Shown: positions 10,680 through 13,970 of the stretch, piece after piece
Position numbering within the stretch: the first letter of the stretch is position 1
How the letters are laid out: each line of letters opens with the position of its first letter
Assembly (NCBI GenBank): GCA_004299095.1
Contig: SCQQ01000086.1
Span: 1 to 64,000 of the forward strand
DNA length: 64,000 nucleotides
From: Burkholderiaceae bacterium
GTDB lineage: Bacteria > Pseudomonadota > Gammaproteobacteria > Burkholderiales > Burkholderiaceae_C
Direction: 5' to 3'
Translations under genes and position numbers: made by a program
Notes under the pieces: model-generated
Databases searched by the model: none
Told to the model about the DNA's origin: nothing
What the model saw: the letters and a program-made list of their open reading frames with translations, nothing else

Positions 10680-12767
10680 TCAGGGCGTCGCGGGCTCGGC
10701 TCCCGCGTCGGGTTCGTCCACCGAGAGCGCCAGCGCCACTGGGCCGGCGGACTCGGTTTCGTCGGCGTCGCCTTCGTTGTCGGCAGCGCCTTCGGCCGAT
10801 TCCGGCTGCAGCACGGTCGTGACCGTGCCGTGCACGTCCAGCGCGATCAGGTCGACGCCGCCCAGCTGGATCTGCACGTGCATGCCGCGCGCCACGCTTT
10901 GCGCGCCCATCACCGGGAACACCAGGGGCAGATTGTCGGCGCGCACCAGCCAGATGCCCGCGGCCTGCTCCTTGATGAGCGTGGCGGGCAGCTCGCGAAT
11001 GCCCTCCTGTTCCAGATAGCGCAAAGCCCAGAAGCGCTCCATGCCGGCCTGGTGGCGCGCGTAGGCGGCGTAGGTGGCGTCGAACGCGCTGACGATGGCC
11101 AACAGCTCGGTGTCCCGAGGCTTGAACGGCGCCGCCAGCGCGGCCGTGGTGTCGTGCTGCACCGCGGCGATCAACTGCCATTGGTTCACCAGGTCGACGT
11201 AGCGCCGCAGCGGCGACGTGCTCCAGGCGTAATGCGCCACACCCATGCCGGCGTGCGGCGCCGGCTTGGTGCCCATGCGCACCTTGACGCCCGGCGCCAG
11301 ACTGGATTGGCTGCGGTAAATCCCCGGGACGCCCAGGGCCTTGAGCCAGCCGCCCCAGGTATCGTTGGTGAGGATCATCAGCTCCGACACCACCAGGTCG
11401 AGCGGCGCGCCGCGTGCCCGCGTATGGATCGCCACGCGCTCTTCGCCGGTGGGTTCGGCGCCGGCGGCGTGACCGCTCAGGTGAAAGCTGTAGTCCGGCC
11501 GGGTGAAGGTGAGCGGCTTGCCGCGCACCTGCTCGCGCTGCGCCTTGAGGTGCTCCGCCAGGCGGTAGAGAAACTGCAGTTGCGTCGGCAGGCTGGCCGG
11601 CAAACCGCTGCGGTTCGCACCGTTGGGTGCCACCGACGGATCGGTGAGCGACAGGTCGTCGTCCAGGGCTTCGTGGCGCAAGTTGGCCTCGACCGGAACG
11701 CGTTCCAGCCGCGTTTCGGTGGCCTTGATTTCCAGTGTGGCTTCGTCCAGCGTGACGTACAGCGACAAGGCCGGATTGGCGCGGCCGGCCAGCAACGTGT
11801 ATGTGTCGACCACGTCCGCCGGCAGCATCGTGATCTTGTAGCCCGGCATGTAGACGGTGGACAGGCGTTCGCGGCACACCTGGTCGAGGGCGTCGCCCGG
11901 CTGAATCGCCAGGCCCGGCGCAGCGATGTGGATGCCGACCGTGACCGCGCCGCTGCCCAGCCCCTGGACCGACAAGGCATCGTCGATTTCGGTGGTTTCG
12001 TTGTCGTCGATGGAAAACGCCTGCACCGGCGCCTCGGGCAGCGCCAGCGTACTGGCGGGCGCGTGCAATTCCGGAAAGCCGGTGCCGCGCGGAAAATTCT
12101 CGAACAGAAAGCGCTGCCAGTGGAACTGGTAGGCCGAGGTGATGGCGCCGGCGTGCGTGAGCAGCGCCAGCGGCGCGCTCTTCGTGCTGCGCGCAGCTTC
12201 CACCACGGCCTTGTATTCGGGCGCGTTTTTGTCCGGCTTGAACAGGATTTTGTAGAGCTGCTCGCGGATCGGCGCCGGGCATTGCCCTGCGGCCAGCTCA
12301 CCGGCCCAGGCACTCACTTGCGCGGCGATCTGTTTCTTTTTTTCGATGGCGGCGAGCGCTTGTGCCACGATGTCCGCGGGCGCCTTGCGAAAGCGGCCGC
12401 TGCCGGCGCGGCGAAAGTAATGCGGCGCGGCCTGTAGCGCAATGAGCGCCGCGGCTTGCTGGACGGCCGTGGGTGTGCCGCCGAAGTAGTCGCGCGCCAA
12501 GTCCTGGAAACCAAACTCGGCCGCCGGCGCGAATTCCCACGCCAGCGCCGGATCGATGCCGGCGGCTTCGTTGGTGGCTTGCGTGACGAGCGCGTCGCCC
12601 GCAGGCGCATCGAAGTGCAGCAACTGGTGCGCGAGCTTGACCTTCACGCGCTTGCCAGAATCCAGCTCGACCTGGGCCGAGGCATCGGTCTCGGAAAGAA
12701 TGCGGCCGGCCAGAAACTTGCCGGCGCTGTCGAAAAGTACGTACATGGAGGGCGCAGATTGTCCCAT
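10680..12767 (-). CDS. RNB-family exoribonuclease (RNase II-like)
   Basis: A 695-residue protein of the short RNase II/R-like group found in betaproteobacteria and cyanobacteria. An N-terminal beta-rich segment (MYVLFDSAGKFLAGRILS) leads into the RNB catalytic domain, with the active-site block SIDDNETTEIDDALSV and downstream AHYAWSTSPLRRYVDLVNQWQL. Such enzymes degrade RNA 3' to 5'. The Glu in TTEIDD sits where E. coli RNase II has an Asp. The C-terminus is acidic (ESAEGAADNEGDADETESAG). The ORF track begins at a TTG; I prefer the ATG at 12767, although ATG 12746 (MYVLF) matches the usual family N-terminus and cannot be excluded. Confidence 0.88.
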   Translation of the reverse strand: MGQSAPSMYVLFDSAGKFLAGRILSETDASAQVELDSGKRVKVKLAHQLLHFDAPAGDALVTQATNEAAGIDPALAWEFAPAAEFGFQDLARDYFGGTPTAVQQAAALIALQAAPHYFRRAGSGRFRKAPADIVAQALAAIEKKKQIAAQVSAWAGELAAGQCPAPIREQLYKILFKPDKNAPEYKAVVEAARSTKSAPLALLTHAGAITSAYQFHWQRFLFENFPRGTGFPELHAPASTLALPEAPVQAFSIDDNETTEIDDALSVQGLGSGAVTVGIHIAAPGLAIQPGDALDQVCRERLSTVYMPGYKITMLPADVVDTYTLLAGRANPALSLYVTLDEATLEIKATETRLERVPVEANLRHEALDDDLSLTDPSVAPNGANRSGLPASLPTQLQFLYRLAEHLKAQREQVRGKPLTFTRPDYSFHLSGHAAGAEPTGEERVAIHTRARGAPLDLVVSELMILTNDTWGGWLKALGVPGIYRSQSSLAPGVKVRMGTKPAPHAGMGVAHYAWSTSPLRRYVDLVNQWQLIAAVQHDTTAALAAPFKPRDTELLAIVSAFDATYAAYARHQAGMERFWALRYLEQEGIRELPATLIKEQAAGIWLVRADNLPLVFPVMGAQSVARGMHVQIQLGGVDLIALDVHGTVTTVLQPESAEGAADNEGDADETESAGPVALALSVDEPDAGAEPATP

Positions 12768-12844
12768 CAAGCGTGTTGGCGGTCAGTGCGCGGGGCGTCC
12801 GCCGGTCAGGTGGCGCGCCGCACCCATGGCCACACGCCGGCGCT

Positions 12845-13285
12845 TCAAGGCGCGGCTTTTTCCAGAGCCGGGTAGTCGATGTAGCCGTGCGCGCCGCCGC
12901 CGTACATCGTGGCGCGCGCCCCGACCGCCGGCGCCACCGGCCGCGCGCCGCCCGGTTGCAGTTCGGTGTGCGAAATGCGCCCCACGTGCCACAGCTGCAC
13001 CACGATTTTTCCACCGCGCGCGTGCACCGCGTCGGCGACGGCGCGCCAGCCGGCGCGCGCTTCTTCGGTATACAGGCCAGGGACGTTGGCGTGGCCTTGC
13101 CCTTGCGGGCTGATGGCGGCGCCTTCGGTCACGATCAGGCCCGCGTCGGCGCGCTGGGCGTAGTACGTGGCGGCCATGGTCGGCGGCACCGCGCCGGGCG
13201 ACCGGCTGCGCGTGAGCGGCGCCATCACGACGCGGTTGGCCAGCGCCAGGCCGGAGAGATCAAACGGGTCGAACAGGGTGGTCAT
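12845..13285 (-). pseudogene. old yellow enzyme (NADH:flavin oxidoreductase), internally deleted
   Basis: The 146-residue ORF has an intact OYE N-terminus: FDPFDLSGLALANRVVMAPLTRSRS, TYYAQRADAGLIVTEGAAISPQGQG and VVQLWHVGRISHTELQPGGARPVAP. It then passes, in frame, into ATMYGGGAHGYIDYPALE, which is the extreme C-terminus of this family. A complete enzyme has about 360 residues, so roughly 200 residues of the TIM barrel are missing, including the catalytic His/Asn or His/His pair, the active-site Tyr and the C-terminal FMN phosphate site. It cannot be a functional FMN oxidoreductase. The deletion left both ends and the frame intact. Confidence 0.85.
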
Positions 13286-13382
13286 GGAGGGCGTTCAGGA
13301 ACCTCTGGTTGATTCGCGCTGGATGCGCGCGCCATCGGGGGTTCGTTCATTGTGCCGATGGCAGCCGCTGCGCGCAGGCGGG

Positions 13383-13970
13383 TCAACGTGCCAACTGAAG
13401 AAAGTCGCAAACGGCGCCGAGGTGCGTGGCGAACCCGCTCAGCGCGTGATCACCACCCGGCAGAACCCGCAGCGTGGCGCCCCGGTAGCGCGCTGCCATT
13501 TCGCGCCAGTCCAGCACCTCGTCGCCTTGCGCGATCAGGGCGAAGGTGCGCTCGGGTTGCGAAAGAGGACCGGTTGCCAGCGCGCGCAGCTCGGCGATGT
13601 ATTCGGGGCGAAAGAAGAAATGCTGCGTCGGGTCGTGCCACGCCGTTTGTTCGCCGATGGCCGCGGCCAAGTCGCGCGCCGGATCGACGGCAGGGTTCAG
13701 CAGCGCCGCGCGCGCACCTGTCCGTTCGGCCCACCAGGTCGCGTAGTAGCCGCCCAGTGACGATCCCACGACCGCCATGCGCTCGCGCGGCCAATCGGTG
13801 GTGCCGCTTTCGATCAATGCCGCCGCGGCGCGCGGCGATGGCGGCAATTGCGGGCACCACCAGTGCACGGTTGGATACATGGCGCGGACGTGTGCCTGCA
13901 TCAGTTGCGCCTTGTGCGACTGCGGCGACGAGCGAAAACCGTGCAGGTAGAGGAGGTGGGTGGTCGGCAT
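13383..13970 (-). CDS. YqiA-like esterase, alpha/beta hydrolase
   Basis: A 195-residue hydrolase of the UPF0227/YqiA group. The start motif LLYLHGFRSSPQSHKA supplies the oxyanion region. The nucleophile Ser lies in VVGSSLGGYYATW, the acid in LIAQGDEVLDW, and the catalytic His in GGDHALSGF. YqiA homologues hydrolyse short acyl esters in vitro; the natural substrate is unknown. I use the ATG at 13970 (MPTTHLLYLHG) because it is where the family begins; the upstream extension in the track is Arg-rich and unlike protein. It is divergent from rodA. Confidence 0.85.
   Translation of the reverse strand: MPTTHLLYLHGFRSSPQSHKAQLMQAHVRAMYPTVHWWCPQLPPSPRAAAALIESGTTDWPRERMAVVGSSLGGYYATWWAERTGARAALLNPAVDPARDLAAAIGEQTAWHDPTQHFFFRPEYIAELRALATGPLSQPERTFALIAQGDEVLDWREMAARYRGATLRVLPGGDHALSGFATHLGAVCDFLQLAR

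Follow-up and report, generated by a model that had tools for sequence, protein, structure and literature searches.

On the minus strand of the window (the whole 64,000-nucleotide stretch of DNA analysed here), an open reading frame (ORF) of 146 codons at positions 12845..13285 resembles an old yellow enzyme (OYE) of the alkene/GTN reductase type, OYE C1, from which the middle is missing. The locus raises the question of whether this frame is a decaying gene, a small protein that is still in use or a gap introduced when the genome was assembled. With a probability of roughly 85%, we read it as a full-length class C1 OYE that was acquired, lost its middle in one in-frame deletion and is now a pseudogene rather than a working mini-protein.

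Two ends of one enzyme in a single open frame

The ORF starts with ATG, stops with TGA and contains no internal stop codons or frameshifts. Its descent from the OYE family is indicated by the Pfam profile PF00724 (Oxidored_FMN), which it matches at 98 bits against a cut-off of 27, albeit with partial coverage only (profile positions 2-116 of 342, corresponding to ORF residues 4-114). Its best matches in the PDB are the glycerol trinitrate (GTN) reductases 5n6g and 4jic. The chain of 5n6g aligns in two separate pieces, residues 1-129 with ORF residues 1-128 (174 bits) and residues 351-370 with ORF residues 123-142, which indicates that the segment from approximately 130 to 350, some 221 residues, is absent. 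The Pfam and two-part PDB alignments thus bear out the original prediction that the start of an OYE is joined in frame to its end, without a stop codon.

The N-terminal part (residues 1-119; 12929..13285, minus strand) comprises the lid and the first approximately three beta/alpha units, as far as QLWHVGRISH...PVAP, and is 62-77% identical to intact relatives. The C-terminal part (12845..12913, minus strand) consists of ATMYGGGAHGYIDYPALEKAAP and the stop codon and carries the GxxDYP motif of the OYE C1 subgroup. Between them, alignment with intact relatives places the deletion of approximately 221-230 codons in a junction zone, AVGAR (12914..12928, minus strand). Within PVAP-AVGAR-ATMYGGG, this zone can be aligned to either flank, leaving an ambiguity of about five codons. 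The breakpoints first proposed, approximately 125 residues from the start and 20 from the end, hold to within a few codons, and we refine them to an N-terminal part of about residues 1-119 and a C-terminal part beginning at about ATMYGGG. The proposed loss of approximately 0.65 kb also stands; measured against the nearest intact relatives (367-376 amino acids) it amounts to 221-230 codons, or 0.66-0.69 kb, about two thirds of the coding sequence. As a DNA pattern, defined as WHxG followed after 60-90 nt by YGG...GY, the fusion occurs once in the window (12882-12991, minus strand) and in none of 100 shuffles.

Compared with known enzymes, residues 1 to about 119 and the YGGGxxGYxDYP tail align in order with NerA and XdpB (OYE C1; PDB 4jic, 5n6g and 5epd), whereas the approximately 221-230 residues that include the catalytic His/Asn pair are missing and XdpB Tyr68 is replaced by His. 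The best NCBIfam match, over residues 3-120, is to N-ethylmaleimide reductase NemA (NF007899), but the score of 153 bits lies far under the cut-off of 403 because of the deletion.

Lost residues, fold and constraint

The active site of XdpB, which is closely related to NerA, has H176 and N179 as its catalytic pair, with Y181, Y68, Q100, R228 and R318 surrounding the flavin (PMC5891007). H176, N179, Y181, R228 and R318 (XdpB numbering) all fall within the deleted part of the ORF, which confirms the predicted loss of the active site: neither the catalytic His/His or His/Asn pair nor the Arg228/Arg318 residues of a functional OYE are present. The complete (alpha/beta)8 barrel is absent as well, with approximately three of its eight strand/helix units left and five gone. 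Among the FMN and active-site residues of the N-terminal part, Gln100 of XdpB is kept as Q97, while Tyr68, mapped with the same offset of three, corresponds to His65. This position is occupied by Tyr in all 108 aligned intact homologues. Of the columns that at least 90% of these homologues conserve, the fragment deviates at four, a number reached or exceeded by only 3 of the 108. The GxxDYP signature near the C-terminus that marks the OYE C1 subgroup (PMC5891007) is present as GYIDYP.

Structure prediction with AlphaFold2, using a 13-sequence alignment, did not assign the fragment a confident fold (pLDDT 42.7, pTM 0.41), as compared with a pLDDT of 70.2 and a pTM of 0.79 for an intact full-length relative with the same alignment. 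The earlier suggestion that the frame may still yield a stable mini-protein is not supported by these results, given the few barrel units left, the replaced invariant Tyr and a pLDDT of 43 against 70. A mini-OYE retained in a new role, for example by partnering with an intact OYE or acting as its decoy, would be in keeping with the open frame, the preserved GxxDYP tail and the intact OYEs in the same genome. A precedent for such contact exists in XdpB crystals, in which the C-terminus inserts into the FMN site of a neighbouring molecule (PMC5891007). However, the tail of the ORF ends in ...EKAAP, unlike the polar end tied to XdpB self-inhibition, the fusion was found in no second genome examined, and the loss of most of the barrel and of a conserved residue, together with the poor fold prediction, makes a new role highly improbable. 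We consider it just as far-fetched that the cell expresses the fusion and retains it as a small protein that regulates or contacts one of the three intact OYEs. Most likely the fragment has no present-day function. With five of the eight barrel units gone from its product, along with the active-site Arg residues and the catalytic His/Asn pair, the gene would be a pseudogene drifting towards loss.

The pattern of substitutions gives some indication of when this decay may have begun. Among intact homologues, the nearest one found comes from genome G566, which belongs to another genus of the same family, and shares 77% identity over residues 2-119. Differences between the fragment and this homologue number 20, 13 and 43 at the first, second and third codon positions. 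The third-position excess indicates either that most of the divergence predates the deletion or that some constraint remains; the coding-like codon-position composition that persists in the fragment, together with the open frame, counts against the pseudogene reading. The deletion would be fairly recent relative to the split from G566. Judging from the replaced invariant Tyr and the four conserved-column departures, the retained part appears to be under relaxed constraint. The loss of the Tyr suggests that decay is under way, though this loss may have come before the deletion. In a tree of the N-terminal part (118 columns) the fragment has no firm placement, and its terminal branch is long, the fourth longest of 109, though not exceptional.

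A probable accessory gene between yqiA and rnb

The ORF is flanked upstream by a yqiA-type esterase gene (UPF0227; 13383..13970), which served as the locus anchor in relatives, and downstream by rnb, an RNB-domain exoribonuclease gene (10680..12770) which probably begins at the ATG near 12766; all three genes are on the minus strand. Throughout the order, yqiA and rnb lie next to each other, and in none of the relatives with both genes on the examined locus does an OYE lie between them. The gap separating the two genes measures 0-330 bp in many relatives and 560-800 bp in others. In same-genus genomes with the longer gap (L116, L117, L119, L121, L123 and L124), the region is filled by a putative cytochrome b561-like open frame, labelled by reading the translated frame rather than through a family search. 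These varied contents suggest a slot in which accessory genes come and go. The OYE of G566 resides at an unrelated locus, beside genes that, as read from their translations, resemble an FAD-dependent monooxygenase and a metal P-type ATPase.

Two further features of the slot were observed. A 26-nt repeat of 77% identity, CGCCCTCCATG, occurs at 12729-12754, within the 5' end of rnb, and at 13268-13293, before the OYE start; it may be due to chance or may be a trace of OYE insertion. In the single-contig genome G024 (L141, 1458-2040), yqiA is split into overlapping frames, pointing either to gene decay or to an assembly prone to errors.

The lineage probably gained a full-length class C1 OYE, an NADPH-dependent alkene/nitrate-ester reductase, at this slot. 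Acquisition is the simplest reading here, though loss in the relatives may instead explain the pattern. Later, a single deletion would have removed approximately 0.66-0.69 kb from the middle of the gene, with the frame kept by luck; by chance, one deletion in three keeps the reading frame. Three other OYE-family genes, all full-length and scoring above the cut-off, are found elsewhere in the genome, and the deletion would have been tolerated because these remain. The order of events could also be different, the fragment having arrived pre-deleted or having been built from two OYE pieces at insertion. A full-length OYE occurs at this locus in no relative examined, and the sequence shared by the OYE start region and the rnb start could reflect a short-homology insertion, both of which would accord with such an origin. 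Nevertheless, the two parts match the same OYE type, with the order and reading frame expected of one gene, for which a single deletion is simpler, and we regard arrival in the shortened form as unlikely.

The deletion may have been assisted by recombination between short repeats at the breakpoints, one of the explanations first proposed. In most of 105 intact homologues, among which the unrearranged parent is not represented, in-frame identity between the two breakpoint regions extends over only 4-6 nt, which indicates that such repeats are common in these GC-rich genes and are no proof without the parent. Direct repeats of the length expected at the breakpoints from intact homologues, only 4-8 nt, also bear on whether the assembler dropped the approximately 0.66-0.69 kb from a gene that is in reality full-length. 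The assembly, a draft in 122 contigs, leaves some room for such an error, although nothing points to one. Yet repeats this short are too short to mislead an assembler, and no long repeat is present at the junction. The missing middle segment is on no other contig of the assembly, where its only matches are the three complete paralogues. Nor would an assembly error account for the replacement by His of an active-site Tyr that is otherwise invariant. An artefact is accordingly improbable, and a genuine deletion remains the preferred reading.

A single occurrence among related genomes

The fusion was absent from the 398 other genomes searched in the order (399 including its own genome, which matched as a positive control), from 28 genomes of the genus and from the family matches listed. 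Several short or broken OYE frames were considered as second examples and rejected. Those of G737 and G006 are cut off by contig ends, that of G678 (L188) is a full-length gene with a single frameshift, and that of G005 (L152:1423-2489) is frameshifted; the internal deletion is present in none of the four.

The ORF resembles other bacterial internal-deletion pseudogenes in having paralogues that make it redundant, in stemming from one event confined to its locus and in deviating at conserved sites, and it differs from them in that the frame is kept. This is ordinary pseudogenisation, a process already known, and it gives no sign of a novel protein type or mechanism. Annotators should label the ORF a pseudogene and leave it out of counts of ene-reductases. 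It has little wider import, serving as an example of accessory-gene turnover in the yqiA-rnb slot and of how a GC-rich pseudogene can retain an open frame and resemble a small protein.

OYE genes are frameshifted in three relatives, G005 (L152:1423-2489), G678 (L188) and G003 (L156), and some of these frameshifts are possibly sequencing errors. In G022 (L151:2268-2429), a genome of the same genus, a C-terminal OYE remnant of approximately 46 residues is all that is left, an independent case of OYE decay.
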